Shown: positions 2,657-54,311 of the stretch, piece by piece
Numbering within the stretch: the stretch's first letter is position 1
Layout: every line of letters begins with the position of its first letter
Assembly (NCBI GenBank): GCA_039000515.1
Contig: JBCFYV010000012.1
Span: 28,969,305 to 29,033,304, forward strand
Direction of reading: 5' to 3'
Length of the DNA: 64,000 bases
DNA from: Timema cristinae
Taxonomy: Eukaryota > Arthropoda > Insecta > Phasmatodea > Timematidae
Position numbers and translations under genes: made by a program
Notes under the pieces: model-generated
What the model saw: only the letters and a program-made list of their open reading frames with translations
What the model was told of the DNA's origin: nothing
The model's database searches: none

Positions 2657-2965
2657 TCAAGGTCTTTTCCTCACTGATGAGATTTTACCACAGATGGCAT
2701 TTTGGTCTAGAGCCTCAAAATTGCAGGCAAAAAATCCATCTAGACTTGCCTGACGCACCTTGTAGCAACCATGATTCTTTCTTTCAGTTTTCATCCCCCC
2801 ATAAATAGAATGTATGATTACTTCTTGTCGTATTGACACATAATCTAATTTGGAAGCAGTTTCTCTCAGAATATAAGATCTCTGTGAGCCTGTGTCTACC
2901 AAAACACGAACACGATAATATTTTTCAGATCCTTTAATATTTATTGATAAAATTTGTAAGAACAC
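2657..2965 (-). pseudogene. BEL/Pao aspartic protease fragment (peptidase A17 / DUF1758)
   Basis: A 102-codon minus-strand fragment contains LVDTGSQRSYIL, the DTGS active-site loop of the BEL/Pao retropepsin, preceded by the usual beta-strand (LQILSINIKGSEKYYRVRVL). The protease would cleave the element polyprotein. The reading frame stops shortly after the fragment and does not continue into the reverse transcriptase. Confidence 0.85.
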
Positions 2966-3059
2966 TTTTGGACAACTTGTTAAATTGGTTAAAGTGGTTT
3001 CCTGGCCATCTTATTTCACTGCCTCCCCCTTAAACCTGTCTGTCCCTTCTCTCTGTAAC

Positions 3060-3200
3060 TCCTGACACATCAACGCACTGTGCTTATTTTGGCCAATTCA
3101 ACACTTCATGTAAATTCTACAATTCTTGACACAATGGCCAGTCTTCAAACATGCGAAGAAACAACCCTTTGCCTTAAGAATCCTACGTTTTTCTTCTTTA
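3060..3200 (-). pseudogene. BEL/Pao CCHC zinc knuckle
   Basis: On the minus strand the segment reads CLKARKMSKEEKRRILKAKG followed shortly by CxxC...GHxxxxC (C-F-F-A-C-L-K-T-G-H-C-V-K-N-C), a retroviral-type zinc knuckle between gag and protease. A stop codon follows within about ten codons. It normally binds element RNA. The match to CCHC spacing is seen directly; function is from family knowledge. Confidence 0.7.
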
Positions 3201-3231
3201 CTCATTTTCCTTGCTTTTAGACAGTTAGCAC

Positions 3232-4371
3232 TCACATGAAGGCCTTTAAAAATACACAGTTTCGCTCTTTAGTACAACTTTTGGACAACAACCCAGCTGC
3301 TGTAGGTATCTGCTCTTCTAATAAACGACTCTGCCGCTTCTTATATTTACAACCATCATTTTTTAGTCCAACTCCTACCATGGCAAGACTAATCCTTTCT
3401 TCTGACTCCACCTCTGACCTCAACAACATTATGCTGTCAAGGCGTTGTTGAGGTTCGCCCCCATGCACACATTTAGGACTTCGTTGCCAAGCTCTTAAAA
3501 TATCTTCAGGCATATAGGACTCTACCAAAGGATAGAGCATCGCTGCATACTTGTCAGTAGTAACACCGAAGGTTTCAAGCACTCTAATGTGAGATTCTAT
3601 ATTGTCATAAATAGTAGACATTGACGTGGATGCACCATGTTGTTGAGCATTTTGAAGAACCAACTTCAAAAATTCTCTTGCGCATACTTCCACTAACAAT
3701 TATTCTTTTCCAAAACGAGACTTGAGACTGCTTACTACCTTCATATAGTTCTCTTCAGTTGGCGGAAAGCTCTTAACAACCTCTCTTGCTCGTGGGCCCT
3801 TCACCGTAGCTTGAATAAGGTATTGAAACATGTCGACTGGCGCAATATCCGGATCTTAATCAATCTTCTCAAATGGACACGAAAACTCTAACCCATTTTT
3901 AATATCCCCATCAAAATTCCTAAGCTCTAGCTTCTGTAACTTAAACTTTCTCTTACTATTAAAATCGATACTTCCTGAATCCCCTTTACAAAATTCTTAA
4001 GAAGCTTCTAACAACTCACCAACACCGACTTGTATCTCCAAGAATTTCTGTAGCTATTCATCCACCATCTTCGTTTCTTTATCCAAATCCTCACTTCCGG
4101 CGTCGAGTTTCATGTCCAATATTTTATCATCCAGTTCTATTAATTCTTCATTTTTACTCTCCAGCATAGAAAATAATGCTTGAATTTCCTTTATTTCTAG
4201 TTCCGAAGTATTAATCTCTTCTTGAATATCATTCAATGCTCTAGTAAACACCGTCCACGTAATTGTTCTTAACTCTACAACACGTTCCACGATCCTCGCC
4301 GTTTCTTTATGGTACGAAAATATCAATGGTTCAAAACCGTTGTAGAAAGTGGGTCCTGTCACGGTCGACAC
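3232..4371 (-). pseudogene. BEL/Pao gag-like region (DUF1759 type), broken
   Basis: The upstream piece (4054-4371) is an acidic, Glu/Asp/Leu-rich segment (ELIELDDKILDMK) like the start of BEL gag. The downstream piece (3232-3699) carries the family's conserved stretch ending GVTTDKYAAMLYPLVES and LRAWQRS. The two pieces are in different frames with stops between them. Gag of this group forms the particle that packages element RNA. The protein is not made intact here. Confidence 0.8.
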
Positions 4372-4664: not shown

Positions 4665-4845
4665 CTTGAACCAGTAGCATTGTGGGTGGAGCCAATATCG
4701 ACTGGGCCGCCGCCGTTGCGACGCAGCTGTAGATGCCCTCGTGGACCGGCATGACGCAATCCACCACAAGTCGAGAACGAACCTTGGCCATGCCACCGCT
4801 AGGAGTGCTTATGTCGTTCACCAGACGGTTGTTTTCAAAATCATC
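4665..4845 (-). CDS. ImpL2: ImpL2/zig-like immunoglobulin gene, exon for the second half of Ig domain 1
   Basis: Minus-strand exon of 181 bp, flanked by an acceptor (accaacAG|GATG) at 4846-4847 and a donor (CAAG|GTGAAA) at 4663-4664. It begins in phase 0 and ends in phase 1. The translation starts DDFENNRLVND, continues with GMAKVRSRLVVDCV and reaches HEGIYSCVATA: the D-x-G-x-Y-x-C-like strand F of an Ig fold with its second disulfide Cys. This combination resembles secreted two-Ig proteins of the ImpL2 (insulin-like peptide-binding) and C. elegans zig type. The exon is markedly GC-richer than its surroundings, as expected for a constrained coding exon. The second Ig domain is not in the window, so the exact orthologue is inferred. 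Confidence 0.8.
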
Positions 4846-5019
4846 CTGTTGGTAAATTTAAAGCAAAGTATAATTTGTCATGTGCTAGTTTCTAGTTCAA
4901 TAATGGCTAAAAGCTAATTAAAATTTTAAACCAATTAAAGGAAGCATTTGCTTGGAGTGAGAACAGGAAACCAAAATGTTTAAATTTAAATGTAGTACAC
5001 CTTACAAGGATTGACACTA

Positions 5020-7949
5020 GTGTGCAAACCTGTGAGAAAGGTGCAGTTCCAGTGTAGTGTATACTAGTGAGAGAGGTGCAGTTCCTCTGACCCAGTGTAG
5101 TGTGTACTTGTGAGAGAGGTGCAGTTCCTCTGACCCGATGTAGTGTGTACCTGTGAGAAAGGTGCAGTTCCTCTGTGTCAGTGTAGTGTGCACCTGTTAG
5201 AAAGGTGCGGTTCCTCTGCCCGGTGTAGTGTACTTGTGAGAGAGGTGCAGTTCCTCTGAGTCAGTGTAATGTGTACTTGTGAGAGAGGTGCAGTTCCTCT
5301 GCCCGGTGTAGTGTGTACCTGTGAGAGAGGTGCAGTTCCTCTGACCCGGTGTAGTGTGTACCTGTGAGAGAGGTGCAGTTCCCCTAACCCAGTGTAGTGT
5401 GTAATTGTGAAAAAGGTGCAGTTCCTCTGTGTCAGTGTAGTGTGCACCTGTTAGAAAGGTGCGGTTCCTCTGCCCGGTGTAGTGTGTACCTGTGAGAAAG
5501 GTGCAGTTCCTATGTGTCAGTGTAGTGTGCACCTGTTAGAAAGGTGCGGTTCCTCTGCCCGGTGTAGTGTGTACCTGTGAGAGAGGTGCAGTTCCTCTGA
5601 CCCGGTGTAGTGTGTACCTGTGAGAGAGGTGCAGTTCCCCTAACCCAGTGTAGTGTGTAATTGTGAAAAAGGTGCAGTTCCTCTGTGTCAGTGTAGTGTG
5701 CACCTGTTAGAAAGGTGCGGTTCCTCTTCCCGGTGTAGTGTGTACCTGTGAGAGAGGTGCAGTTCCTCTGTGTCAGTGTAGTGTGCACCTGTTAGAAAGG
5801 TGCGGTTCCTCTGCCCGGTGTAGTGTGTACTTGTGAGAGAGGTGCAGTTCCTCTGACCCGCAGTTCCTCTGCCCGGTGTCGTGTGCACTTGTGAGAGAGG
5901 TGCAGTTCCTCTGCCCAGTGTAGTGTGTACCTGTGAGAGAGGTGCAGTTCCTCTGACCCGGTGTAGTGTGTAATTGTGAGAAAGGTGCAGTTCCTCTGTG
6001 TCAGTGTAGTGTGCACCTGTGAGAGAGGTGCAGTTCCTCTGACCCGCAGTTCCTCTGCCCGGTGTCGTGTGCACTTGTGAGAGAGGTGCAGTTCCTCTGA
6101 CCCGGTGTAGTGTGTAATTGTGAGAAAGGTGCAGTTCCTCTGAGTCAGTGTAGTGTATACTAGTGAGAGAGGTGCAGTTCCTCTGACCCAGTGTAGTGTG
6201 CACTTGTGAGAGAGGTGCAGTTCCTCTGCCCGGTGTAGTGTGTACTTGTGAGAGAGGTGCAGTTCCTCTGCCCGGTGTAGTGTGTACTTGTGAGAAAGGT
6301 GCAGTTCCTCTGAGTCAGTGTAGTGTATACTAGTGAGAGAGGTGCAGTTCCTCTGACCCAGTGTAGTGTGCACTTGTGAGAGAGGTGCAGTTCCTCTGCC
6401 CGGTGTAGTGTGTACTTGTGAGAGAGGTGCAGTTCCTCTGCCCGGTGTAGTGTGTTCCTGTGAGAGAGGTGCAGTTCCTCTGACCCGGTGTAGTGTGTAC
6501 CTGTGAAAGAGGTGCAGTTCCTCTGACCCGGTGTAGTGTGTACTTGTGAGAGAGGGGCAGTTCCTCTGACCCGGTGTAGTGTGTGTACCTGTGAGAGAGG
6601 TGCAGTTTCCCTAACCCAGTGTAGTGTGTAATTGTGAGAAAGGTGCAGTTCCTCTGTGTCAGTGTAGTGTGCACCTGTTTGAAAGGTGCAGTTCCTCTGC
6701 CCGGTGTAGTGTGTACCTGTGAGAGAGGTTCAGTTCCCCTAACCCAGTGTAGTGTGTAATTGTGAGAAAGGTGCAGTTCCTCTTTGTCAGTGTAGTGTGC
6801 ACCTGTTAGAAAGGTGCGGTTCCTCTGCCCGGTGTAGTGTGTACTTGTGAGAGAGGTGCAGTTCCTCTGAGTCAGTGTAATGCGTACTTGTGAGAGAGGT
6901 GCAGTTCCTCTGATCCAGTATAATGTATACCTGTGAGAAAGGTGCAGTTCCTCTTTGTCAGTGTAGTGTGCACCTGTTAGAAAGGTGCGGTTCCTCTGCC
7001 CGGTGTAGTGTGTACCTGTGAGAAAGGTGCAGTTCCTCTGTGTCAGTGTAGTGTGCACCTGTTAGAAAGGTGCGGTTCCTCTGCCCGGTGTAGTGTGTAC
7101 CTGTAAGAGAGGTGCAGTTCCTCTGATCCAGTATAATGTATACCTGTGAGAGAGGTGCAGTTCCTCTGATCCAGTATAATGTATACCTGTGAGAAAGGTG
7201 CAGTTCCTCTGACTGTGTTTACTGTGTACTTGTGAGAGAGGTGCAGTTACTCTGATCCAGTATAATGTATACCTGTGAGAGAGGTGCAGTTCCTCTGACT
7301 GTGTGTAATGTGTACTTGTGAGAGAGGTGAAGTTCCTCTGAGTCAGTGTAGTGTGTACCTGTGAGAGAGGTGCAGTTCCTCTAAGTCAATGTAATGTGTA
7401 CTTGTGAGAGAGGTGCAGTTCCTCTGAGTCAGTGTAGTGTGTACTTGTGAGAGAGGTGCAGTTCCTCTGAGTCAGTGTAGTGTGTACCTGTGAGAGAGGT
7501 GCAGTTCCTCTGAGTCAGTGTAGTGTGTACTTGTGAGAGAGGTGCAGTTCCTCTGAGTCAGTGTAGTGTGTACCTGTGATAGAGGTGCAGTTCCTCTGAG
7601 TCAGTGTAGTGTGTACCTGTGAGAGAGGTGCAGTTCCTCTGAGTCAGTGTAGTGTGTACCTGTGAGAGAGGTGCAGTTCCTCTGATCCAATATAATGTAT
7701 ACCTGTGAGAGAGGTGCAGTTCCTCTGACTGTGTGTAATGTGTACTTGTGAGAGAGGTGCAGTTCCTCTGAGTCAGTGTAGTGTGTACTTGTGAGAGAGG
7801 TGCAGTTCTTCTGAGTCAGTGTAGTGTGTACCTGTGAGAGAAGTGCAGTTCCTCTGAGTCAGTGTAGTGTGTACCTGTGAGAGAGGTGCAGTTCCTCTGA
7901 GCCAGTATAATGTATACCTGTGAGAGAGGTGCAGTTCCTCTGATCCAAT
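5020..7949 (-). repeat. 43-bp minisatellite containing the exon end and its splice donor, about 68 copies
   Basis: On the minus strand each unit is the 27 nt that end the Ig exon (encoding IRGTAPLSQ) followed by 16 nt of intron (GTACACACTACACTGG). The array fills nearly all of the 3.07-kb intron between exons 7918-8081 and 4665-4845. The unit nearest the exon is the real exon/intron junction. Junction variants along the array are CAG|GTACAC, CAG|GTATAC, CAG|GTGCAC, CAA|GTACAC and CAA|TTACAC; only the last loses the GT. Units are mostly 43 bp, with partly deleted units near 5859 and 6043. Variants recur in groups of 2, 4 or 6 units (for example units with gcacctgttag at about 5175, 5429, 5514, 5685 and 5770), showing higher-order duplication. 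All three minus frames stay open for long stretches because 43 is not a multiple of 3 and the unit lacks stops. Confidence 0.95.
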
Positions 7950-8081
7950 GTATGGTGGGGGCAGGACTTCCAATAGCCTCACAGTCAAGCTCCACCCTGT
8001 CACCCATGCGGGTGTTGATGATGGTGGGAGGTGCCTCGGACATCTTCACCCAGTCGTGACTGTGAAAGGAGGCCCCACCAC
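7918..8081 (-). CDS. ImpL2: ImpL2/zig-like immunoglobulin gene, exon for the first half of Ig domain 1
   Basis: Minus-strand exon of 164 bp. The acceptor is ctctgctgcgcAG at 8082-8083 after a pyrimidine-rich stretch; the donor is CAG|GTATAC at 7916-7917. It starts with two bases of a split codon (phase 1 intron) and then has exactly 54 codons, ending in phase 0, which matches the phase-0 start of the next exon. The translation includes SHDWVKMSEAPPTIINTRMG, then DRVELDCEAIGSPAPTIHW: the strand-B Cys and strand-C Trp of an I-set Ig domain. Its final 27 nt are the core of the adjoining minisatellite. Using a more distal donor in the array would shift the frame unless a multiple of three units (129 nt) were included. 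Homology to ImpL2/zig proteins is a family-level judgement from the motif series. Confidence 0.85.
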
Positions 8082-10961: not shown

Positions 10962-11061
10962 NNNNNNNNNNNNNNNNNNNNNNNNNNNNNNNNNNNNNNN
11001 NNNNNNNNNNNNNNNNNNNNNNNNNNNNNNNNNNNNNNNNNNNNNNNNNNNNNNNNNNNNN
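10962..11061. other. Assembly gap, exactly 100 N
   Basis: A run of 100 Ns, the conventional length for a gap of unknown size. It lies in the large intron between the signal-peptide exon and the first Ig exon and could hide an exon. Confidence 0.99.
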
Positions 11062-18489: not shown

Positions 18490-19480
18490 TTTGTCCGCAT
18501 ATTCATGAGTTCAACCAGTTGGTACAAGTCATGTCCTACTCGTGTAACCAGTCCCCGGGACATCAAATAATGGAATATTATGAACCACTAATAACCAGGC
18601 CCCGGGATATAAATAATAGCAGTTTGACCCGCCTCGGTGGTGTAGTTAGCTAACGCGCTAGTCGTGTTGAGCTCGACTGCCGAAGACGGGAAGATCGAGG
18701 TTCGAATCTCGGTCGGGTGAACTGCGGGGGAGGGGGGTCCCTAAATGGTTTTCCACTCTCCATCCACGCAAATGCGGGTTCACTTCCTCTAAATTCAACC
18801 TTCCCAATTCATAATCCATTAGCGTATCTAGCACTTAAGCGTATAACCCAAACGGGTAGTAAGACGCGGTGCTAAATAATAAATTTAAAAAAATAGCAGA
18901 TTGTGAACCAGTGGTAACAGGCCCCGGCACATAAAATATAATATTATGAACCACTGGTTGCCAGGCTCCGGAGCATGAAACAATAGAATATTATGAACCA
19001 CTGGTAACAAGGCCTTGGGCAATAAACTATAGCAGATTGTGAACCAGTGGTAACAAGGCCCGGGACATAAAATATAATATTATGAACCACTGGTAACAAG
19101 GCCCTGGGAAATTAAACTATAGCAGATTATGAAACAGTGGTAACAAGACCCCGGATATAAAATATAATCTTATGAACCAATGGTAACAAGGCCCTGGAAA
19201 ATCAAACTATAGTAGACTATGAACCAGTGGTAGCAAGGCCTCGGGAAATAAGACAGTATCAGATTATGAATCAGTAGCAACAAGGCCCCGAGATATAAAA
19301 CAATAGCAGATTATGAACCAGTGGTAAGCAGGCTCCGGGATATCAAACAATAGCAGCTTATGAACCAGTGGTACAAGCCCCCGGGACATGAAGCAATAGA
19401 ATATTATGAACCTCTGGTAACAAGGCTCCGGGACATCAAATAATGGAGTATTTTCAACCACTGGTAACCAGGCACCGTAA
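18490..19480. repeat. 43-47-bp minisatellite (GAACCACTGGTAACAAGGCC unit), split by a SINE
   Basis: About 16-18 imperfect copies of a unit built around gaaccactggtaacaaggcc, then ccgggacataaa and aatagcagattat. Successive starts at 18905, 18948 and 18995 give steps of 43 and 47 bp. The array is interrupted by the group 2 SINE at 18628-18871. Confidence 0.85.
18628..18871 (+). mobile_element. tRNA-derived SINE, group 2, inserted in a minisatellite
   Basis: Same head, body and tail as 15842-16085, with a G-rich expansion after the head. Flanks aatagcagtttg (left) and aatagcagattg (right, after 18885) look like a 12-bp target duplication with one mismatch, though the minisatellite unit itself contains this motif. 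Confidence 0.9.
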
Positions 19481-20104
19481 CAACAAACAACAGTGGGTTC
19501 CAAGCTTAAGTTGTAATTCAAACTAAGATTATTAGTGGATAAGTTGAATATATGATTTAGACTGATTTTAAAAGGAAGATCATTATTTGACAACTAGTAA
19601 AGTAACTAGAAATAGGCTCACTAATTCACAAGTCAAATCATGTGATCTACAGCTGTACCTTTGATAAAGGCTTATACTATAATATTTACATAAGTTATAG
19701 TCTGCACTGACTAAACTGACTACACTTTTATATCGTGTGCGCGTGGATATGAGATCATGAGCGAGGGACGAATCCTGGATAACTCAGTGCTAGAACATTG
19801 ACGCGCTAAAATCCCGAGTTCAATTTTATTCTAGTGTCCAGGTGTCATTTTTCAACAAATTTAAATTAATTAAAGTGTATTCTCCTCCATACGGACATTC
19901 CCGTAGTTAAAATGATTTGCAGCTTGCGTGTTGATATTCATTAGTAATTATTTAAGAAAGCCGTAATTCAAACCAAAACTCTTTGTGGAGAATTTAAATG
20001 TATGATATAGCTCCTTACCAACTCCAACAAGTAGGGAGCTACTATGTCTTTAGCAAATGATATATACGCCACATATATCTCTCCTACGTTTGTTATGAGT
20101 TTAT
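19481..20104. other. Unrecognised, with one tRNA-like arm at 19764-19858
   Basis: The 19764-19858 segment is a single diverged arm of the fold-back element (cctggataactcagtg ... gtgtccaggtgtcattttt). Nothing else supportable. Confidence 0.55.
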
Positions 20105-29805: not shown

Positions 29806-29865
29806 AATGAAGTTTTATAGTAAATATCTCTGTTTAAAATTCCTCATTAGACGTTAAGAATCTGG

Positions 29866-31760
29866 GAAGTAAGAAGGGTGGTGGGACATTAAATAAGATC
29901 ATTAATAAACTTCCGTTCAAAGTCCATATTCCTGGTTAAGGCTCTGCCTACCCATAAATGCACGGTTCTAAACAAAAATTTAAAAAAAAATATATATTTA
30001 ATAATTCAACATTGTTGTTTTTTATTTATTTTAGTAACATATCTGGGCATCTTTCATAATTCTTATGGAATTTTCAAACCACGCTAAAAATAGTTATTGA
30101 AATATTTTCATTAAAATGTTTCCATTTCAATGCATTTTAAATGAGAAAACAAAAATTATTAATGGATTTATTTATTTTCTTTGTACGATTAAGCTAGAGT
30201 GTTTGTTTTTAACATATTATTTAATGAATAATTTCTTTTTCTTTTTAGACATATTTTTTAATTTGGGTTAGCTTCAATAATCACGACGATATTGAGCTCT
30301 AACGACTCCCAAGTTGACACTCTAGTCCAAATACATGGTTTTAAATACAACTTTTCCTTCTGCAACTAGTTGTCTTAGCTGATAATAGGTGCCGTTAGTA
30401 TGATCATTGCCCATTTACAAGCTAGTATCATTTTGCAAGCGTTGGCTAACCTGCTGTATCGGAATGCAGGCGGCAATGGAGGGTTAAACTAATCTCTGTG
30501 ACCTTCTTGAGTCAAAGAAACATTAATACAATGTACGTTAGGATAAGAAGGGCCAATGTCCAATTATGAAAATTTGCGTAATTAAATATAAACAATTAAA
30601 CATCTTAATATATTCAGTAACTAAAATAATCACAAAGTCTTCCTGCTGTGTGAATAAATATAGTTGGTCCCTACTTACTTCAATGAGAGTATTACTCTAG
30701 TGATACATTATTTTCAAAGAAAAAGCCACATGCTTCTCCATATACAAAGTTTTATGACATTAGCCCTTATTTAACTTAGGCAGTAAAACATGTAAAATTC
30801 TTCACTCTTATCTTATATTCTTTCTTGGGTTTTCTCATTCTTGAGCACTACACGTTGTAATAATAAGTGTTAATATTCAAAGTATAGGAAAACTACTGTA
30901 CATTGAATTTTTAATCCACTATTATAATAAATAAAAATAAACATTCCTGCTCATATCAAACATAGTTATTTTAAATAAAATTTGGTCTAAATGTAATTTG
31001 GAGACGTTCTCAGTATAATTTTATATACTAGTTTTTATTTTACAATCTAGGATTTGACTCTCATTGGACTTTGGAATAAGCTATTTTTCAAAAAGTTAAT
31101 GAACGAAGTTTTAGGTAGTCAAGATGTGAAAATGTTAATTTTATTTTATTAGCCTGTTAAATGTGATTACTTTTAATTTGAACCTGTTGCATTCTCGCAT
31201 TTTGTGCGCTCGTTTCGGAAGAAATGTATCGAATCCCGAACAATAAGTACCCACGGTGATTACTTTTTATATAATTAACAATATGTGACCTTTTTGCTTT
31301 CGAACAAAATCCAATGGACTGTATAAATTTTGAGGTGGAGAAGTATTTACAAAATATTATTTTATATCCTTGTGAATAACAAGTTTATGAAGAAAGGGCG
31401 CACAAAGATAATCAAAGATATAATTGATTATTTAACTGCTTGTAGTGAAGGGTAAGTTTTTTTTAATGGTATGCATATTACTGGCGCTTAGGCTATCTGT
31501 ATCTACTAATTTAAGTACAATGGATGAGTAGCGATACTATTATATTTACTGTAGAAATAATATCAAAATTAAGATACAAATAAATATTTCTATATAACAA
31601 TGCAGCGATTATTCTGATATTTCAAGTACTTTTTTTTTTTTTAAAAAAAGCTCTTAGCTGAAAGTAATTGTTACTAACACTCTGTAACGCACTTATTGAA
31701 TGTTCAAAATCTCTTGTGCCTTGGCCGAGTTCGTATCATGCTAGTTCTAAGTAATTTCAA
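29866..31760. other. No recognisable feature
   Basis: AT-rich non-coding sequence (present in both copies). No repeat family or reading frame recognised. Confidence 0.5.
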
Positions 31761-31764
31761 CCTA

Positions 31765-31850
31765 ACAGGGAATCGAACTAGTCAAGTTACTAGAGCTGAT
31801 TAATTTACGCACTCAGTGCTCAGTCATAGCACTTTAGCAATATTGACCAC
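31765..31850 (-). mobile_element. tRNA-like SINE head fragment (copy A)
   Basis: On the minus strand AGTGCTATGACTGAGCACTG begins a tRNA-like stretch with box B TAGTTCGATTCCC. No tail seen. Copy B is at about 51300-51385. Confidence 0.5.
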
Positions 31851-31927
31851 GACATGAAGCCGATGATAAGTAAAATATATTTAAAACCATTAAAATTAAT
31901 GAACTTTTGTGTTCCCTATGCCATAAA

Positions 31928-31948
31928 GTAAGTAAGTAAGTAAGTATT
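31928..31948. repeat. (AAGT)n microsatellite
   Basis: Five units here; fewer (three) at the same place in copy B (about 51459-51472). Confidence 0.85.
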
Positions 31949-31955
31949 TGATACC

Positions 31956-32240
31956 CGACCGCCTCTGTTGTATAGTGGTCAGATTTACTGGCTTCAGATC
32001 CTTAAGTCCCAAGTTCGATCCCCCGTGTCCCTAATTCTGTCTGTGAAGCAGTGGGTCTGAAACGGAACCAAAATCAACCTCGTGAGGACAAATGAGAAGA
32101 TAATTGAATGAATAAGTAGCGCTTCAGTCTAGAAAACTGAGATAGAAGTCTGGAGGGCTCGTTGTGCTAACCACATGGCACCCTCAGCTTGAAAATGTTG
32201 GCACTATCTTTGCCAACATACGGCAGCCTCTCGGTTGGTA
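31956..32240 (+). mobile_element. tRNA-derived SINE, group 3 (Glu-like head)
   Basis: The head CGACCGCCTCTGTTGTATAG TGGTCAG with box B AAGTTCGATCCCC is tRNA-like. The body contains gaagcagtgggtctgaaacg and cctcgtgaggacaaatgag. The common tail of groups 1/2 is absent. The 3' end is uncertain. Confidence 0.7.
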
Positions 32241-32393
32241 TAGCCTGCTTGCAGGCTGACACCATGGAGATATTACTCAAGTTAAACTCTACCAATAGGA
32301 TACAAAATTATTCCCAAAAACATTTATTTCTGGAAAATTGTGTAAATCCTATAGGTGTTTGAAAACTGTAAACACCGTATTAAATAACAGATA

Positions 32394-32644
32394 CCCACTT
32401 AAGTGGCTGAGTGGTCTAAGGTGTCACTAGTGTTAAATTGGCCTGCTGATAGCGGAGCACTTGGGGTGCAAATCCTGGTCGAGTCTATTGAGGGTAGTTT
32501 TTCCTAAATTGTTTCCCCATCTTCCAAAATAAAAATGCTGGTAGATAACCTCTCAAATGCTTCTTTCCTCATTACCACCCAATTAGATTATCATATATGC
32601 GTATAACATGAACAGGTAGTATGACGTGGTGATATCAGTAATAA
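32394..32644 (+). mobile_element. tRNA-derived SINE, group 4 (Leu/Ser-like head) with target duplication
   Basis: The head AAGTGGCTGAGTGGTCTAAG has box A TGGCTGAGTGG; box B is GGTGCAAATCCTGG. The body shares ttcctaaattgtttcccc with group 2, and the tail gcgtataacatgaacaggta gtatgacgtggtg is a diverged common tail. The 12-mer aaataacagata flanks both sides (32382-32393 and 32645-32656). Confidence 0.9.
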
Positions 32645-32990
32645 AAATAACAGATATATTTATAGTCAAAATTGTTATAGTCTTCGAAATGAAACTGCTT
32701 TTAAAATATTTTATTGCCTCCTTAGCCTTTAAATTTTAAAAATTAGCCAAAGCACAGCGGCCCAATTTAGCACATTAAATTTTAGTTTTTTATTTTACCT
32801 GCTTACTGATAAACTCAAATAAATGGTACGACAAAATCGTAAGCTACATACTCTCTCGTAAAGGTTATTTATTATAGTTAGTGACAAAATCTTCAAAAAT
32901 AAGTTATCTCTAATTTTAGCTTAAATAAATTTTTCTCTGATAAATAAGTGTACATTATTATGTACATATTTATTTGAAAAAATTTCAATA

Positions 32991-34000
32991 GTGGTACAAC
33001 AGCATTAACCTGGAGTCACGTGACACTTTGATATGCTAATTACTCAAAATGGGTACGGGTACAAAACTTTCTCTTTATGGTACAAAACGGCACAGAACTA
33101 GTACAAAACTTTGGCATCAAAAAATTCAAAAGTGGTACAACAGCATTAACCTGGAGTCACCACTTTGATATGCTAATTACTCAAAATGGGTACGGGTACA
33201 AAACTTTTTCTTTGTGGTACAAAAGATACAAAACTAGTACAAAACTTTGGCATCAAAAAATTCAAAAGTGGCACAACAGCATTAACCTGGAGTCACCACT
33301 TTGATATGCTAATTACTCAAAATGTGTACGGGTACAAAACTTATTTTGTGTTACAAAACGTACAAAACTATACAAAACTTTGGCATCAAAAAATTCAAAT
33401 CAAAAGGGTACAACCGCATTTACGATACGTGGAGTACTCACTTTGATATGCTAATTACTCAAAACGGGTACGGTACAAAACTTTTTCTTTTGTACAAAAC
33501 GGCACAAAACTAGTACAAAACTTTGGCATCAAAAAAAGTTCAAAATAAAAGGTAAAACAGCATTAACCTTGAGTTCACCACTCTGATATGCTAATTACTC
33601 AAAAGGGTACGGGTACAAAACTTTGGCATACCAAAAAAGTTCAAAATTCAAAAGTTGTACAACATGCATTACCTGAGTCACCACTTTGATATGCTAATTA
33701 CTAAAATGGGTACGGGTACAAAACTTGGTACAAAACTACAAAAACTTGGTTAAAAATTCAAAAGTGGTACAACAGCATTACCTGGAGTCACCACGTTGAT
33801 ATGCTAATTACTCAAAATGGGTACGGGTACAAAATGGTACAAAACTTTGGAAAAAAAATTCAAAGTGGTACAAAAGCATTAACCTGGAGTCAGCACGTTG
33901 ATATGCTAATTATCAAACGGGTACGGGTACAAAACTGTACAAAACTAGTACTAAACTTTGGCATCAAAAAGGTTCTAAATTCAAAAGGGGTACTACAGGT
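32991..34000. repeat. ~136-bp minisatellite beside the capsid module (copy A)
   Basis: About eight units, each containing gtggtacaacagcattaacc, ggagtcaccactttgatatg, ctaattactcaaaatggg, tacgggtacaaaac and actttggcatcaaaaa. The first full period (33132 to 33268) is 136 bp; later units shorten. Reading frames across it are low-complexity and not gene-like. Confidence 0.95.
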
Positions 34001-34220
34001 TAATGGACGTCTAGCTGACTGGAATGGATAGGCTAATTTTTCTGCTCGAGAGTGTGATTGTAGCTTGACGTTAAATCTCCCCACGTTTAGTCAAACTTGG
34101 TCGCCTACACACTTTACGGTCCGGCACTACACTTCTTATCTCTCTGAGTTCTTGGAAAAAGTTTGCTTGCTGCCTTTACTGATTACCGGTCGTGGTCGCC
34201 AGTCTCCCAATTGTTTAAAC

Positions 34221-34463
34221 AAACCAGTAATTCTGCCAACCTGATGGCTGGAATCCACCAGTTTGTATAACTTTAGCAACGCCATCTATTTTGATAGCTG
34301 AAAGCTCAACACACCACCAAGAGGCTAGGCAGGGCCTTAGCAAACCAGTAATTATGCCAACCTGATGGCTGAAATCCACCAGTTTGTATAACTTTAGCAA
34401 CGCCATCTATTTTGATAGCTTAAAGCTCAACACACCGCCAGAGAGGTTAGGCAGGGCCTTAAC
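34221..34463. repeat. Tandem duplication, 121-bp unit x2 (copy A)
   Basis: The block from aaaccagtaattctgccaac to ggctaggcagggcctta is repeated once at a 121-bp step, just upstream of the PLA2-like remnant. Confidence 0.95.
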
Positions 34464-34503
34464 AATACTGTGGTCCTGACACCAAGTTGGAAAAGGGTTT
34501 TAA

Positions 34504-34626
34504 ATGAGTGATCCCTGTGTTAACGCGCTAGATCAGGCCTGTAAAGAACACGATATCGCCTAATCTCAAGTTAAAGATCTTACAGGGAAACATATGGCTA
34601 GGCGAGTGTTTGTTGAGAAAACCTGA
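34504..34626 (+). pseudogene. PLA2-like capsid domain remnant (copy A), premature stop
   Basis: A 40-codon frame opens MSDPCVNALDQACKEHDIA. The ACKEHD segment carries the His-Asp catalytic pair of the phospholipase A2-like domain found in parvovirus VP1 and in minor capsid proteins of Polinton/adintovirus-like elements, where it helps particles leave endosomes. In copy A the codon after HDIA, where Tyr is expected, is a TAA stop (34561-34563). The domain is shorter than usual at both ends. It lies directly ahead of the other capsid-like frames on the same strand. Identification rests on one short motif plus context. Confidence 0.7.
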
Positions 34627-34748
34627 AAAAAGTCACTGCACCAGAGTGAAAGTTGAGTGAGTGTACTTTTTGTTGGGGTTCGACGTAATCGTCTTGGACG
34701 GGGGAAGACACAAGTCTTGACCAAACATGTATTTATTTACACATAAAC

Positions 34749-35018
34749 ATGATTCGGGTAGAATGTAGTCTTATTTGCGAGGCTTACATCAACGAAGAAC
34801 TGAGTCAAACCCTGCACGAGTTTAGCATGACAGTTCTACCAGGCCATAAGATCGTGGAAGCGCCAAACAATATTATTTACCTTACAGTCATGAAACGAGT
34901 AGTAGAGTTTATCTCTGTGCGATTAGTCGACGAGCGAGGAGATATTGTCAATTTTAGGAACGAGACTATGTCATTACTTTATCTGAAACGTATAAGTGAT
35001 GGTGCTCCTAATAGATAA
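34749..35018 (+). pseudogene. Small minor-capsid-like protein of the Polinton-like element (copy A)
   Basis: A 90-codon open frame reads MIRVECSLICEAYINEELSQ, then a FSMTVLPGHKIVEAPNNIIY segment and ISVRLVDERGDIVNFR. Between the PLA2-like remnant and the double-jelly-roll protein, small proteins with a PG.KIVE.P.N.IYL core and an RLVD..G..V.FR ending are common in arthropod Polinton-like loci; a penton/minor-capsid role is assumed. The frame is identical at the protein level in copy B. It is open, but flanked by broken genes, so probably not functional. Confidence 0.65.
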
Positions 35019-35130
35019 AATAAAGGATCACGCTCTTTAGATCGTTACATTTAAAGAAGATCGATGAAAGAGTTAACATCTAGTAATAAACAGTTTTTAC
35101 GTCAGTGGAAATATTCTCTACGAAAATAAT

Positions 35131-36320
35131 GAATAGGTCCATTGAATATTGGAGACTCTGCAGTATTCGACACGGCTCTAACCAGCTTCCAGTATCATGG
35201 CTATACTTTGTGTATTCCTGGGATGTTAACTAATGGGAACGAGCTCAGGATATCTATTCAACAAGGATTATACACGTTACCTCATCGTTCTCTCTTGCAT
35301 GTTAAGAGGAAACTTCTACTGAATACGGGGTGTGTTGGAAATACTTTAAGAATTACCAATAATGGAATACTTCATCACTTTTCAAGAATCGCCTATGATA
35401 TTAACGGTGTAGAGATTGATCAATATAGAGATGTGGGTATTTCAACTCAGCTCAATAACTATCTTTCCATTAAGTATGGAAAGCAATCATACATGTAAAT
35501 GCTGGATGGAGATTAAAAGGAACTCATGTTAAAGCCGCTTCGGGTATCTTTGATGTATGCATCCCTTTAAAACTCATATTGGATTTTGCCAAAGACTATT
35601 CTTGTATACTTATCAATGTGAAACAGGAGCTAGTACTTGGCTGATCAATGACAGTCAATAATACCTTTCAAAGAGTAGCACCTCCTGCTGTAAAAACACC
35701 TTCTAGAATCGAGCTCAGTAAAATCTCATGGCTTGTACCTCATATCAAGACTGTCTGAATAATGATATCGATCGACTAAATGTACTAAATTTAATCAAGA
35801 GTGGGAGGATAATTGATCTACCATTTCGTACTTGGGAACTGTACAAGTACCCTAATATTCCTAGTTTTACCCAACACGGTCGGATTGTGAAAACATCCAA
35901 CTCTTCTGGAAAAACCTCATTATATTATCTTTGCTCTGAAGACTGGCAGCAACAATAAGACAGAAGTCTTTTCGATCATTGTCATTTACGATCAGAAAAC
36001 TTTATTTGAATTCAGTCATGTACCCTTATAAACATATAAACCTAGTTTTCAACCAATATTGATTTTTCAAATTATATGAGGATTATGCTAATCTTCAAAC
36101 TTCATGCTATGTAACGAGCATGGTTCTACCATTACTTTATCCTACCAGATTCAAGTTTCTTGCCCCCATTATCGTGTTCGACGCAACTCGACAGAAAGAT
36201 ACTTTCAAGGATGGCATGATGACATATCGAACCACGTTTGAGTCCAAGATAAATATACCTGCAGATATCAAAGCTTTTTGTCTAACCATACACGGACGCG
36301 TCACTCGCTACAACCCTTAA
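35131..36320 (+). pseudogene. Double-jelly-roll major-capsid-like protein, broken (copy A)
   Basis: Coding text runs through several frames: IGDSAVFDTALTSFQYHGYT and HHFSRIAYDINGVEIDQYRD (35142-35498), then GTHVKAASGIFDVCIPLK and ILINVKQELVLG (35500-35640), WLVPHIK (about 35728), DLPFRTWELYKYPNIPSF (35800-35870), and finally APIIVFDATRQ and FCLTIHGRVTRYNP (36120-36320). This series matches the arthropod double-jelly-roll-like (DJR) protein family, related to Polinton/adenovirus-type capsid proteins. At least four frameshifts or stops separate the blocks, including an extra G after the start (ATGAATAGG against ATGAATAG in copy B) that displaces the first codons. It cannot give an intact protein. 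Confidence 0.8.
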
Positions 36321-36454
36321 GCCAGTGACGTCTCCAAGCTAGCCTCATAAATAGTCTGAAAACTGTGTTTCTCCATCCCGTGCAGAATGTTTATCGACGT
36401 GCAAGGGTTCATGAGCGATGACGGGGTCTTTCTTTTCAAGAAGGTTGTCCTCAT

Positions 36455-36725
36455 ACATTAATTTGTATACAAATACGGATATATACCATATGTATTTATA
36501 CACACATATGGTATATATCCATATTTGTATATATACACAGATATATATAAATATATTTGTATATATGTATATACATATATACAAATATGGATATAAATAT
36601 ATATATATATACAAATATATTTATATATACACATAAATATGTATATAAATATATATATATACAAATATGAATATATACCATATGTATATATATATATACA
36701 TATGGTATATATCCATATTTGTATA
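36455..36725. repeat. AT-rich palindromic repeats (copy A)
   Basis: Many copies of gatatataccatatgtat and its complement catatggtatatatcc interleaved with tatacaaatat. The region can form hairpins at several scales. It differs strongly in length and order from copy B (56015-56395). Confidence 0.9.
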
Positions 36726-37101
36726 CCGGGTGTTCATTTGAAAACTTTCCACTAAAATACCTCGAAAGCAACGCGTTGCAGAAAAAAAATGTTATAATTA
36801 AAATTTGTTTGGTTCTGAGGGGGAAGTAAGGTAGTAAGGCTGGTATGACCTTGGGTGGCGTTGCTAAGGTGAACGTTAAGGTCTCTTTGATTTTTCCAAA
36901 TGAGATTACTTTTTTTTTTTAAATTACATATTCCTGTATATCACGTTGTGCCATTTACAAAATGATGGTTTTAAGCTTTTTAAAGTGAAAGCTATCGCGA
37001 GAAATAATCGTATAATCTATAAACAGATTTGTATATATATATGTATATAGATTATACGAGTGTATACAAATATGTACCTAGAATATCTATAATATATATA
37101 T

Positions 37102-37146
<45 letters not shown>

Positions 37147-38873
37147 TTGTATATAGAGCATATGTACTATATATATATATATATATGTGTGTGTGTGCAG
37201 TATATACAAAAATGTATATAAATTATATTTATATATGTATATATAACCAATACAAAAAAAAACTTTGGGGGGTAGTATCTTAGACCAAAGGTTCACCAGC
37301 CTTGATCGCATCTTTTTTATACGTATTTACATAATTATGTATATATAAACATATATAGTCATATATAGAGGTTACACAAAAAAAAACTTGGGGTGGTGTG
37401 TGAATGACCTTCAGTATGTGCTGTGAGTTAAGAGTTCGCTAATAACCCTCCTACTAACCCGTCGTTAAGTTTCAATGAGAGGAGCTCATTAAGCTATTGC
37501 TGGCCAGGCGTGGGAGGATCGTAGAGGGTTTGTGGTGGTGGAGTTGGAGAAGGGGGCATGGTGACTGTTTGTAGTCGCGATTATAGTCAGCTTATTAACT
37601 TCAACAACGGGGGTTATAATCAAGCTAGTAATCTCCAAAACAGCAGGCAATTGGAGCCAAGGAGGAGACAGAATAGTTAAGCTGGTTTGAATGAAGGACA
37701 GCGACAAAGGCCTCTTTATTAATATCGATATTTTCCTTTCGATACCAACACTTTTGACTTGATACTTTTGTTTCAATCATTTTATTCATTTGAGTACTTA
37801 CACTCTGGTATCGGATTGGTATCAAAAGAAACAATTATTTGTTTCAAATGTATGTATTGTAACGTTTTTTAAACACATCCTTTGATGGCCTGAACAAAGG
37901 TTCTTGATGCTTCGTTCGGAAATTATATAGAGGCATAACTAGGCCCCACATTAAAACTTTATTAATACTATTATCTCTAGTGACATAAAATTTAAAAAAA
38001 CAAAAGGAAAAGCTCTGTGATAGCTCAAAAGTACAATTTATAAATAAAACTGCTTACAGTATTTTTCGGAGAATTATTTCTAGGGTAGTTCGGGAACAGC
38101 CTATTTTTGAATTTTTTCTTTCATATTATAAGTACAAAAATTATAGTACCAAGCCAAAATCATCATTAACATTTTCGTATATAAAAAACAATAAAATAAA
38201 TTCTACTTAGAAACAATTCCCTGATTATTGTTTCGCTACTGATATACCTAAAGTTTTCGATAATTTATTTCTATACTAGAAATGAGTATGCTATCGATAC
38301 TTTTCTAGCGCAAGTAGTTCATTAGCTCTTGGGATTACACTTGTAAGGAAATGCGAGACCTCACCAGCTCTCGATCACGAGGGTAGCGTCCGACACCCTA
38401 GATCAGCCAGTGGCGCATCAGTGTACTGAACTAGAGGTCTCGGATTCTACTCTCTGTATGGTTGCAAAATTTATCAAGGGGTTTAACCCTTCCACAATGG
38501 TACATTAAAAGTTAAGACCACTAGTTTTTTTTTACTAAAAATTGAGAATATATGTAAGACTGAAAGTGGTATGCTGATGAAATCAGTCGATGTATAAAAT
38601 ACACGTTAAATATCCCCCCCAAAACACATATGTACTAAAATTTCCCCTATAAGTATCATCAATTTTAGTTTCACTCTCAAATGTATAGTCTTCTGTTTGT
38701 AGCTGGGCTACAACTGAAACGATTTGATGGATTTTGTTCAAATTCGATATTTAGGCTAGATCTTCCATGGTTATACCTTCAGAATAAATAGTGATTTTTA
38801 TTCTAGAATTTAAATGACTGTGGCTTGTTTACTGAATACTAATTTTTGAAGGTTTGGAATTGTTTGAAAATGG
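36726..38873. other. Unrecognised, with further AT microsatellites (copy A)
   Basis: Begins accgggtgttcatttgaaaa, which looks like a transposon terminus but was not assigned. (TA)-rich stretches lie at 37030-37250 and 37320-37370. The 37480-37840 block is GC-richer with minus-strand frames lacking family features; their identity in copy B only reflects the duplication. At 38698-38760 gctgggctacaactgaaacg and following bases resemble 3' parts of RTE-type LINEs. Confidence 0.4.
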
Positions 38874-39138
38874 GTGACCTGGTGGTCTAGGGGTAAAGTG
38901 TCAGACTTCTATGCTGGCGGCCGGGTTCAATCCTCGGTCCCGGCAAAGATTTATCTGATTACCAAACCCTTCCTTCACCTCTGACAAGACATCTTGTGAA
39001 TGTGGGGAATGCCAGGCCTCCACCGTGGTTCGGATTCCACGTTAAACTGTAGGTCCTTCATTTCATCTCACATTCACCCTACCATTACACATTAGCGTAA
39101 GTGCGTATAACCTGAATGGGTAGTAATAATAATAATAA
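38874..39138 (+). mobile_element. tRNA-derived SINE, group 1, with 13-bp target duplication (copy A)
   Basis: Head, body and tail are as at 8519, with tail ending gggtagtaataataataat, lacking the final aagacgcggtg. tgtttgaaaatgg flanks both sides (38861-38873 and 39139-39151), defining the insertion exactly. Confidence 0.97.
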
Positions 39139-40518
39139 TGTTTGAAAATGGCTCCAATAAATATCGTTATTTGAGGCTTTAGGGTACTTTAACACGAGGG
39201 TTATTAGCGCATATAAACTATTTTGTTAAAAATGGATATCTGGGGAGTGTTTTACATGTTTTTCCTCAAAATATATTGGAAGAAATAGTGAAATAAATGT
39301 AAAAGTATGTATGATTGTGTCGGTACATCTATTGTTATTACTGTGGGTCTTTAATTACTTGGCCTCTTAGTGAATTAGAAGCTACTTTGCGAAGCGGGTT
39401 GCATCTTAACTTGACACATTTAGCAGTCTAAGCACTATCACCCCTAGACGTCAATGTACAAAATAGTAAGAGAGGGAAGAATATGAGTAGTCCACCCTGT
39501 TAGCTCTTTATGTATCGTCCGGGTGCACTTCCTCTCTTCCACTGAAGAGTATAAATATACTATTTGCGCCTGGACAACAATGATTTGTATTTCAAAATTA
39601 ACTTTTGTTTTCAATTCTACATAAGTATTTGCTTCCATGGACATATTTTATTTATTTATTTAGTTGAGGTCTGTGACGTGAACTTTCTGAACCGACTGAT
39701 TATATCAACACACGAGAATGTTCTATGAGCGAGAGCGGAAGGCTCTACCAATTTTGCTAGGAAATGTATTTTCACATACTTTACAGGGTTATTTCACATG
39801 CCACAATCAATATTGGACCGGTGGCTTTGCTTCCCCTCAGAAGGAAGTTGTGCTACGGATTTTTATCGCTCAAGAAAAATCCGTCGAACCCATCCGGGTT
39901 TGAATCCACGAGAGTCCTAAGGCGAGCACTTTACCTCATCACTACCGAGGACAACTCGGATTAATATTTTTTAATCTATAAGCGGGTAGTTAATATTTAT
40001 ACACGTAATTTTCGTGAATAAGACAAATATGCTAAGTTGGAGACTATTAAAAAAAATACATAAAACTACTTTAAGATACAAAAAAGTTTTTCGGCAATGT
40101 AAAACTATTTTTATAATTATTTAAGAATAAAGAGCTTTTGTTTTAATGTGATAGCTATAAAACTAGCTGATTAATACATTATCATGAGAAATCCTTTCTT
40201 GATTAGCTGCTACATCACAGGTCACGTAATAAGACAATAGATTCTATCTTTAAACGACTAAAAACTAAATAAATTCCAGAACGTACACAAACACAAGTCC
40301 CCAGGCAGTCAACTCTTAACTGTAAAAAAGGAAGACCCAATTTCACCCTTGATGAATTGTATTCGTCCATGCCGGGATGCTTGGACCAGTAGATAAATGC
40401 GCTATGGACTGAGCTGTGTTGAGAATTTTCATGGAGAGAGGAGGGGAAAACCGCAAGGATAAACCAATATCTGTGAATCTGGTAATAATTTGAGCTCTGA
40501 TATCGTTTGTGTGTGTTT
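39139..40518. other. Mostly unrecognised; tRNA-like head at 39889-39963 (copy A)
   Basis: On the minus strand 39963-39889 has GTGATGAGGTAAAGTGCTCG (box A-like) and box B GGATTCAAACCC, a tRNA-derived head without a clear tail. The rest is AT-rich. Confidence 0.5.
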
Positions 40519-40712
40519 CACGTCTTACTACCCGCACAGGATATCAGGTAAAATTGAGAGGCATTGTGTCCGCAAATACGTGAATGCGGAGTAGAAAACA
40601 ATTGTGGGAAAAATCCTTTAGTACATCCCACTGGGTTTTAAACCCCAACCTCCAAAGACAAACTAGACGAGGTTGACACTTTAAGTCCGCGTGCTATCCG
40701 ATGTGAGTGACC
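40519..40712 (-). mobile_element. Degenerate SINE with common tail (copy A)
   Basis: On the plus strand it begins cacgtcttactacccgcaca, the inverted common tail. On the minus strand box B is GGGTTTAAAACCC and the head starts GGTCACTCACATCGG. Copy B: 60135-60328. Confidence 0.65.
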
Positions 40713-41824
40713 TCTTTATTAACGAAGACCAAAATAGTTATGAATCCAACGCATTATACTACTCGCCGTAGGCCGTTTTTTTTATGTAGATTGAATATAT
40801 ATATTTTTTCCTGCGCCTATGTGAATAGGAATGATCAACAAGTCTAAAGGCACCTGGTTTGATTCCAAGTGATGCTGATGAAGATATTCGTGATAATTTT
40901 GTAGACGGGTTCTTCATGCTCCAATTTGTTATAACTATATAGTTTTTTCAAGGGTTAAATTACCATGTAAGTCATGCGCTGATGTTTAGAAAGGGCACTT
41001 ATTGCTCCCAAATATAAAAACAACATTTAACAACACGTGACTGAATCTCAACCCATGAAATAGTCTAAGAGAAGCTGGTGATTTATATGAACAAGAAATT
41101 AACCATACCAATTTAGAAATAGAGGAAGTCAAGCTCCATTAAAGACACATCCATCAATCTTTTTAATGATTTTGATACATCAGCTTGTCGATATTTATTA
41201 CTTCCGTTCTTGGAACGTGTGAATAGTCTCATCCGGTGTTCTCTGAAACTATTACTAGAGGTGTTACAATAATGAATTCTTTGATAACCATTATACTTTG
41301 AGATCCGTTTAATGGATTTTCTTGTATGGACCTCATATACACTTGAGGACAAGTTGAACTTATGTTCATGTGTGTGTGTTCTACATACATAAACTATAGC
41401 ACATCCACAGTAGAAGTGTAGTTAAGTGACAGCTTGAAGAAGGTTATTTATTCAAAACATTGGCTAGAAGTCACTAATGTCAACCTATTCGTAAATAGTT
41501 TTCATTTGGTTAGTAATAATACATTGTCAATAAAAAGTTCTATAATTCGTTTCAAATAATACTGTCAGCCAATGTTTGCAATAAAGAGCCTTCAACCAGC
41601 TGTCACTTACCAACACTCCCATATTTTCCCAACATGTCTTACAACCCGTTTGGGATATCCACATTTAATCACTAATGGGGTAAGGGTGAGGAAGAGAAAA
41701 TTCAGAGGGAATACACCTGCATTAAATGTAAGAAAAGGCGGTAGCCTTAACTACGCCAATAAAGTCGATTATTATTATTATTTTTATTATTATTACTACC
41801 CTTGGCCGGGATTAGAGCCGCGAT
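40713..41824. other. No recognisable feature (copy A)
   Basis: Contains a 79-codon minus-strand frame (41113-41352, starting MSSSVYEVHTRKSIKR) of unknown nature. The phrase cagcttgaagaaggttattt at about 41431 resembles 3' regions of Penelope-like or non-LTR elements but is too short to assign. Confidence 0.4.
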
Positions 41825-49299: not shown

Positions 49300-49399
49300 N
49301 NNNNNNNNNNNNNNNNNNNNNNNNNNNNNNNNNNNNNNNNNNNNNNNNNNNNNNNNNNNNNNNNNNNNNNNNNNNNNNNNNNNNNNNNNNNNNNNNNNN
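49300..49399. other. Assembly gap, exactly 100 N, at the start of copy B
   Basis: 100 Ns separate the (TA)n end from sequence that immediately matches 29865 onward. Confidence 0.99.
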
Positions 49400-51480: not shown

Positions 51481-51765
51481 CGACCGCCTCTGTTGTATAG
51501 TGGTCAGATTTACTGGCTTCAGATCCGTAAGTCCCAAGTTCGATCCCCAGTGCCCCTAATTCTGTCTGTGAAGCAGTGGGTCTGAAACGGAACCAAAATC
51601 AACCTCGTGAGGACAAATGAGGAGATAATTGAATGAATAAGTAGAGCTTCAGTCTAGAAAACTGAGATAGAAGTCTGGAGGGCTCGTTGTGCTAACCACA
51701 TGGCACCCTCAGCTTGAAAATGTTGGCACTATCTTTGCCAACATACGGCAGCCTCTCGGTTGGTA
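51481..51765 (+). mobile_element. tRNA-derived SINE, group 3 (copy B)
   Basis: Counterpart of 31956-32240 with minor substitutions. A tRNA-like minus-strand head lies just before it at about 51300-51385. Confidence 0.7.
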
Positions 51766-51919
51766 TAGCCTGCTTGCAGGCTGACACCATGGAGATATTA
51801 CTCAAGTTAAACTCTACCAATAGGATAAAAAATTATTCCCAAAAACATTTATTTCTGGAAAATTGTGTAAATCCTATAGGTGTTTGAAAACTGTAAAACA
51901 CCGTATTAAATAACAGATA

Positions 51920-52169
51920 CCCACTTCAGTGGCTGAGTGGTCTAAGGTGTCACTAGTGTTAAATTGGCCTGCTGATAGCGGAGCACTTGGGGTGCAAATC
52001 CTGGTCGAGTCTATTGAGGGTAGTTTTTCCTAAATTGTTTCCCCATCTTCCAAAATAAAAATGCTGGTAGATAACCTCTCAAATGCTTCTTTCCTCATTA
52101 CCACCCAATTATATTATCATATATGCGTATAACATGAACAGGTAGTATGACGTGGCGATATCAGTAATA
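51920..52169 (+). mobile_element. tRNA-derived SINE, group 4, with aaataacagata target duplication (copy B)
   Basis: Counterpart of 32394-32644. The same 12-bp flanks are at 51908-51919 and 52170-52181, so insertion preceded the divergence of the two copies. Confidence 0.9.
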
Positions 52170-52519
52170 AAATAACAGATATATTTATAGTCAAAATTGT
52201 TATAGTCTTCGAAATGAAACTGCTTTTAAAATATTTTATTGCCTCCTTAGCCTTTAAATTTTAAAAATTAGCCAAAGCACAGCGGCCCAATTTAGCACAT
52301 TAAATTTTAGTTATTTTTTTATTTTACCTGCTTACTAATAAACTCAAATAAATGGTACGACAAAATCGTAAGCTACATACTCTCTCGTAAAGGTTATTTA
52401 TTATAGTTAGTGACAAAATCTTCAAAAATAAGTTATCTCTAATTTTACCTTAAATAAATTTTTCTCTGATAAATAAGTGTACATTATTATGTACATATTT
52501 ATTTGAAAAAATTTCAATA

Positions 52520-53560: not shown

Positions 53561-53779
53561 AATGGACGTCTAGCTGACTGGAATGGATAGGCTAATTTTT
53601 CTGCTCGAGAGTGTGATTGTAGCTTGACGTTAAATCTCCCCACGTTTAGTCAAACTTGGTCGCCTACACACTTTACGGTCCGGCACTACACTTCTTATCT
53701 CTCTCAGTTCTTGGAAAAAGTTTGCTTGCTGCCTTTACTGATTACCGGTCGTGGTCGCCAGTCTCCCAATTGTTTAAAC

Positions 53780-54023: not shown

Positions 54024-54064
54024 CAATACTGTGGTCCTGACACCAAGTTGGAAAAGGGTTTTAA

Positions 54065-54187: not shown

Positions 54188-54311
54188 AAAAGAGTCACTG
54201 CACCAGAGTGAAAGTTGAGTGAGTGTACTTTTTGTTGGGGTTCGACGTAATCGTCTTGGACGGGGGAAGACACAAGTCTTGACCAAAAATGTATTTATCC
54301 TACACATAAAC

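Follow-up and report, generated by a model that had tools for sequence, protein, structure and literature searches.

A tandem array of 68 exon-intron junction segments in an Imp-L2-like gene of Timema cristinae

An Imp-L2-like gene and the array between its exons

We analyzed a 64,000-nucleotide stretch of the Timema cristinae genome (the window; contig JBCFYV010000012.1, positions 28,969,305 to 29,033,304), and all coordinates below refer to this window. Its minus strand carries two exons that together encode Ig domain 1 of an Imp-L2-like protein. Exon A (7918-8081, 164 nt), placed by tblastn and acceptor scores, encodes the first half of the domain; its 5′ end is predicted at 8081 (acceptor score 11.1), with 8059 as a weaker alternative (5.7). 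Exon B (4665-4845, 181 nt), placed by its frame, tblastn, and donor scoring, encodes the second half and ends at the donor AAG|GTGAAA. Joining the two exons at 7918/4845 yielded 115 residues that matched Ig_3, I-set, Ig_2, and ig above cut-offs. The same residues matched the Drosophila Imp-L2 structure 6fey_A (E 8.3e-14, residues 8-107), which ranked 12th of 110 matched sequences, after multi-Ig proteins having several partial matches. A protein search (47 candidates) matched two proteins, Bacillus rossius Imp-L2 (58% over 112 residues, with a 2-residue gap just past the exon A/B junction) and a Timema bartmani Ig protein (93% over 46 residues).

When Bacillus rossius Imp-L2 was used in tblastn, the match ran from 8067 to 7918, stopped exactly at 7918, and restarted at 4839 in exon B. 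Imp-L2 homology was present across Ig domain 1 in exons A and B, and the second Ig domain and C-terminal LYPVL of Imp-L2 were found in two further Ig exons (C and D). These exons lie outside the window, ~6 kb beyond its start and in the correct order, and are 95% and 98% identical to the Timema bartmani protein and 58% and 67% identical to Bacillus rossius Imp-L2. No signal-peptide (first) exon was detected when Bacillus rossius Imp-L2 was searched by tblastn against the window plus 80 kb on each side. The exons found are intact and conserved, with open frames, and the gene is probably a working one that would encode a probable insulin-binding protein. An earlier sequence-only reading of this DNA had proposed an ImpL2-like gene with 7918-8081 as one of its exons, and the tblastn break at 7918 and the matches to Drosophila Imp-L2 structures uphold that proposal.

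Between donor 1 of exon A and exon B lies a minisatellite. Tandem Repeats Finder reported a period of 43 with 67.2 copies and 81% matches at 5049-7952, and cyclic alignment on the minus strand resolved the array into 68 units running from 7943 down to 5027. Unit length in the cyclic alignment was 43 nt in 48 of the 68 units (the mode) and 42 nt in 14; the remaining six measured 25, 39, 40, 45, 58, and 58 nt. Each unit joins 26-30 nt copied from the end of exon A to 13-17 nt of the following intron; the coding part of the array is its first 26 nt (7943-7918). These 26 exonic nt of unit 1 were found again in the other 67 units with 0-5 mismatches, gaps counted. The sequence-only reading had described about 68 tandem copies of exon end plus intron start, and both the number and the composition of the units agree with it. 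Past the array, the unique rest of the intron (4846-5026), identified from its sequence and an acceptor score, ends in an ordinary acceptor, ...TTTACCAACAG.

GC content is 0.51 in the array vs 0.35 in the window. Within the array, units 36-38 are identical to units 40-42 and units 53-55 to units 59-61, and likeness between units was on average highest six apart (0.883). A search of the 1.29-Gb assembly (7605 contigs) with the exon end as the query gave 9 matches (3 first-look candidates), all of them within exon A and the array. The units also contain a small hairpin-like inverted repeat (AGAGG...CCTCT; 5049-7952), which can pair between neighbors too. Folding of 361 nt of RNA at the junction gave z = -2.14, with 3 of 100 shuffles equally good; being only modestly better than shuffles, an RNA fold at the junction was dropped as a basis for interpretation.

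Several other features were seen in and around the gene. The public Timema bartmani Ig protein begins inside exon B (4803-4665) and lacks exon A; a gap or an array like this one may have truncated that gene model. The minus strand at 2657-3699, in the intron that follows exon B, matched aspartic protease families and DUF1759, all below curated cut-offs, and may be the remains of a retroelement. A block of ~14.5 kb occurs twice in direct orientation (29865-44385 and 49400-64000; two main pieces 97.3% and 99.2% identical), and its second copy begins directly after a run of 100 N (49300-49399); it is either a recent duplication or an assembly duplicate. A plus-strand open reading frame at 35133-35498 matches a double jelly roll-like domain (PF21738) just over the cut-off, with a near-identical open reading frame at 54652-55005, and the minus strand at 42048-42431 encodes a hAT-type transposase dimerization domain (PF05699), with an identical translation at 61663-62046.

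Donor and acceptor-like properties of the unit boundaries

We then compared the 68 boundaries, each being the place in a unit homologous to the end of exon A. GT was present at the donor place in 61 of the 68 units, TT in 6, and GA in 1, which bears out the claim that nearly all units keep a GT donor. Boundaries with both AG and GT were CAG|GTACAC (20), CAG|GTGCAC (10), CAG|GTATAC (6), and CAG|GTTTGC (1); those with GT and without AG were CAA|GTACAC (16), CAA|GTGCAC (4), CTA|GTATAC (3), and CAA|GTACGC (1); and those without GT were CAA|TTACAC (6) and CAG|GAACAC (1). Donor 1 (CAG|GTATAC, 7916-7917) is followed by 60 decoy GT donors at boundaries 2-68 (5028-7874), of which 36 are AG|GT and 24 are CAA|GT or CTA|GT; GT has been lost at 7 more boundaries.

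Each boundary was joined in silico to 4845. The frame into exon B was open for donor 1 only, as the sequence-only reading had claimed for the phase of the first donor. Its further claim, that any other donor fits every third unit, fails: a frame-0 stop lies at 7818-7820, in the third unit and ~100 nt past donor 1. The phase fits at 18 of the 61 GT donors, but all of these except donor 1 lie beyond a stop. The array contains stops in all three frames and its unit mode is 43 nt, i.e., there is no coding in-frame unit of the UBC type. Since every boundary donor but the first runs into a stop, later donors cannot give a length-variable working protein.

Donor strength was assessed by pairing with the U1 5′ end and by a donor matrix, which, like the acceptor matrix used below, is generic rather than trained on stick-insect introns. 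The donors had been taken as near-identical, but their strength is graded. Pairing with U1 was -7.2 kcal/mol for donor 1, -7.1 for CAG|GTACAC, -6.8 for CAG|GTGCAC, and -6.4 for CAG|GTTTGC, whereas the CAA|GT and CTA|GT sites paired far more weakly (-2.5 to -2.8 kcal/mol). In all, 37 of the 68 boundaries are AG|GT with donor-1-like pairing, the other 24 GT sites are much weaker, and 31 of the 68 boundaries are weak or dead as donors. G at +5 is absent from 59 of the 61 GT donors.

By the donor matrix, donor 1 scored 4.89, which places it at the 91st percentile of the window's 7459 GT sites, yet CAG|GTACAC (5.43), CAG|GTGCAC (5.82), and the single CAA|GTACGC (5.79) scored higher, as did ten CGG|GTCAGA sites in a different register of the array (6.4). 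All of these sites that outscore donor 1 lie beyond the first stop. In the exon plus intron, 50 GT sites scored at least as high as donor 1 by this matrix, and among the three donors scored in the gene, donor 1 was the lowest (4.89, the others being 6.40 and 10.37). Nothing local marks donor 1, since other array sites pair with U1 alike or score higher.

The same boundaries also look like 3′ splice sites. At its end the exon reads ACCTCTCTCACAG, a pyrimidine tract plus CAG, and 38 of the 68 boundaries end in AG, 37 of them as AG|GT; the AG is shared by 36 of the 60 decoy GT donors. By the acceptor matrix, the 38 AG boundaries had a median score of 8.9 and fell at the 93rd-99th percentile of 7108 AG sites, and 37 of the 38 scored above the real acceptor at 4846 (6.44). 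The other acceptors of the gene scored 8.18 (exon C), 6.88 (exon D), and 11.1 (exon A, 8082). The earlier picture of many donors before one acceptor is thus incomplete, since 38 of the 68 boundaries are 3′ splice-site-like as well. The units multiply this 3′ splice-site-like sequence together with the donor, and the array is therefore a series of putative dual-specific AG|GT sites, with 37 of the 68 boundaries being AG|GT and having both 5′ and 3′ site quality, as in UBC-type repeats. GT and AG stand at both ends of 32 of the 67 unit segments.

With cut-offs of 4.59 and 4.5 (about the 90th percentiles of the window), all 36 sense AGGT sites in 5049-7952 passed on both counts. An antisense reading of the array was rejected, as 0 of 65 AGGT sites passed both cut-offs. 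Elsewhere in the window, nine further array spans (some overlap or are duplicates) held 0-2 dual-passing AGGT sites per strand. Another minisatellite (18888-19490, 47-bp unit, ~13 copies) lacks the dual splice-site features (0 of 1 AGGT). The joint score had a median of 14.1 in the array; among 428 other AGGT sites, the 95th percentile was 13.7 and the best score 21.5, and single AGGT sites of array quality are not rare. A CTRAC branch-point-like word was present 18-45 nt upstream of only 9 of the 37 AG boundaries after boundary 1; this scarcity counts against the reading of the boundaries as acceptor-like or dual sites, and against the explanation that we favor below.

Probable tolerance and proposed history of the array

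Anatomy, frames, stops, and site scores were computed; splicing, decay, and history we infer. We consider it reasonably probable that the array is tolerated rather than selected, being spliced out as an ordinary intron with donor 1 chosen by position. The array would then make up most of one intron of the Imp-L2 gene, and the pre-mRNA would normally be joined from donor 1 (7917) to 4846. Position is invoked because the sequence of donor 1 and the preceding 26 exonic nt are common to later units. Donor 1 would be transcribed first, and the exon that it closes, counted from the upstream acceptor, would have an ordinary length of 164 nt.

The array could stay harmless for three reasons. First, 31 of the 68 boundaries are weak or dead as donors. 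Second, every other boundary donor runs into a stop, so its transcripts would probably undergo nonsense-mediated decay. Third, the strong boundaries have the form AG|GT; if donor k were joined to 4846 in error, a 3′-site-like end would remain at k. Units up to k would be retained in such a transcript, and boundary k, now joined to exon B, would be acceptor-like; if donor 1 were then spliced to boundary k, the exact mRNA would in principle be restored, and 36 of the 60 decoys have the AG that this requires. This repair by re-splicing follows the logic of the sequence rather than observation, and at boundary 2 it would need an intron of 43 nt, probably too short. Other points count against the favored explanation: the lack of +5 G in 59 of 61 donors, the place of donor 1 as the weakest of the three donors scored, and the 50 sites that score at least as high. 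Between equal donors, moreover, the intron-proximal one is often preferred, which counts against the choice of donor 1.

As for history, the intron minus the array is 184 nt long. The array meets the unique intron at boundary 68 (CAG|GTTTGC, 5029), where the flank GTTTGCACACTA resembles the unit's GTGCACACTA; the original exon-intron junction was, for this reason, probably at the position of boundary 68. The end of exon A (26-30 nt) and the start of its intron (13-17 nt) would have been duplicated in tandem and then grown to 68 copies via unequal exchange and slippage. The intron is probably older than the array and was later inflated by it.

A bolder version, which we find unlikely, is an intron that erases itself: the AG|GT boundaries of the array would be used recursively to remove it piece by piece, and mis-splicing would be self-correcting. 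The G at -1 sets donor pairing with U1 and the acceptor AG alike, and mistakes at well-pairing donors would therefore be the repairable ones, while the unrepairable boundaries (CAA|GT and CTA|GT) would be the weakly pairing donors. If this were true, a junction minisatellite could expand almost without penalty, and the splicing noise of Imp-L2 would be tuned by the length of the array.

It is distinctly unlikely that the array is regulatory, i.e., that its donors are used enough to destroy a set share of transcripts and that array length tunes Imp-L2 output. The 60 decoy GT donors, none of which leads into an open frame, fit such a role, and so do the 30 in the CAG|GTACAC and CAG|GTGCAC classes that score at least as high as donor 1 by the donor matrix. 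However, GT and its context are kept no better than other unit positions, -1 is among the most variable columns, and the G at +1 has been lost in six units.

We hold it just as doubtful that selection has silenced decoys by repeated G to A changes at -1, each weakening a donor and destroying an acceptor AG. The -1 column (37 G and 28 A in 65 of the 68 units) needed 14 parsimony steps on a tree built without it, more than any other of the 20 variable columns tested. Relative to the shuffled mean, its steps stood at 0.65 vs 0.21-0.45 for five other columns having at least 20 minor states; five rarer columns, however, had ratios of 0.64 to 1.02. The tree is unreliable owing to exchange between units, and strong donors are kept in units 2 and 3, closest to donor 1. 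The pattern in the -1 column fits selection against decoys, a mutation hot spot, or exchange between units alike.

An intron created by tandem duplication (the AGGT model), instead of an array invading an existing intron, seems very improbable. Nearly half of the boundary segments (32 of 67) do have GT and AG ends, and a fission-yeast intron over four 24-bp copies is described in PMC4974935. Yet this intron does not consist wholly of duplicated exon sequence: 184 nt lie outside the array, and the model leaves this unique sequence, with its own acceptor, unexplained.

We give little credence to an assembly artifact or a decayed gene. The window does contain two 100-N runs and one large block present in near-identical duplicate, but the N runs (10962-11061 and 49300-49399) do not touch the array, the exon frames are open and conserved, and the exon is found once in the genome.

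Cassette exons running from an AG boundary to a later GT and extending the Ig domain are disfavored and hardly credible, for although acceptor- and donor-like boundaries alternate and 26 of 1162 AG..GT pairs are stop-free through exon B, the other 1136 meet a stop, and protein searches with array and read-through translations matched nothing. In these searches, part of the array in translation gave no match at E ≤ 0.01 among the 7997 scored candidates with the most shared words, and exon A together with its read-through gave 1 candidate and no match; since neither gave a protein, no relative with a mis-annotated array was found.

Significance and comparison with known systems

The array amounts to a natural experiment on donor choice by the spliceosome, with dozens of sites that share nearly the same 5′ splice site and 26 exonic nt and differ mainly in position. 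RNA-seq junction counts could tell if position decides, be it the donor first made, exon size, or distance to the acceptor. Site strength also varies within the array in a ready-made series, from CAG|GT (strong) through CAA|GT (weak) to TT and GA (dead), and the array bears on the tolerance of tandem repeats at exon ends.

The sequence-only reading knew of no standard feature type for such an array; precedents do exist, in human IFI6 and in dual-specific tandem arrays (PMC4526556 and PMC10809524). A literature search found, among the matches listed, no report of the Timema array or of such an array at an insect exon-intron junction.

Human IFI6 (6-16, G1P3) has a minisatellite with short units of 12 nt. 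Like the Timema array, it overlaps an exon-intron junction and supplies extra 5′ splice sites, which in Timema are predicted. According to PMC4526556, citing Turri 1995, two downstream repeat units of IFI6 act as donors and give three mRNA species. The Timema unit, unlike that of IFI6, is 43 nt, not a multiple of 3, and has an acceptor-like tract, and no decoy leaves an open frame.

PMC10809524 describes tandem repeats with dual-specific splice sites in human UBC and VCX3A. The likeness to Timema lies in the AG|GT at repeat boundaries, by which whole units could be spliced out. UBC units, however, are coding and in frame, whereas the Timema array is intronic except for its first 26-30 nt and adjoins a unique acceptor, and its dual sites are candidates. 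The array bears on the idea, given in PMC10809524, that expansion of dual-specific repeats is mild where splicing can remove them.

A classical ratchet point stands alone in a long intron. Its pyrimidine tract plus CAG|GT restores a donor after splicing, and the Timema units carry the same arrangement; the Timema array differs in having 37 AG|GT boundaries in ~2.9 kb. Recursive splicing at AG|GT sites is mentioned in PMC10809524. Tandem duplication of AGGT segments as an intron source is treated in PMC4974935, which cites ATP2A1 and fission-yeast introns over two and four 24-bp copies. The duplicated AG|GT segments, and an intron that may cover several copies, are common to that route and to Timema, but the Timema intron probably pre-existed (184 nt unique) and was then inflated. 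Tandem repeats at exon-intron boundaries alter splicing in human duplicated genes (PMC2812944), and new Drosophila introns with weak sites lean on nonsense-mediated decay (PMC2809761). Overall, the Timema array is not without parallel, but its size and layout look unusual; it resembles a mix of the IFI6 and UBC types, with decoy donors and acceptor-like ends together, being long, frame-breaking, mostly intronic, and placed at the donor end of its intron.
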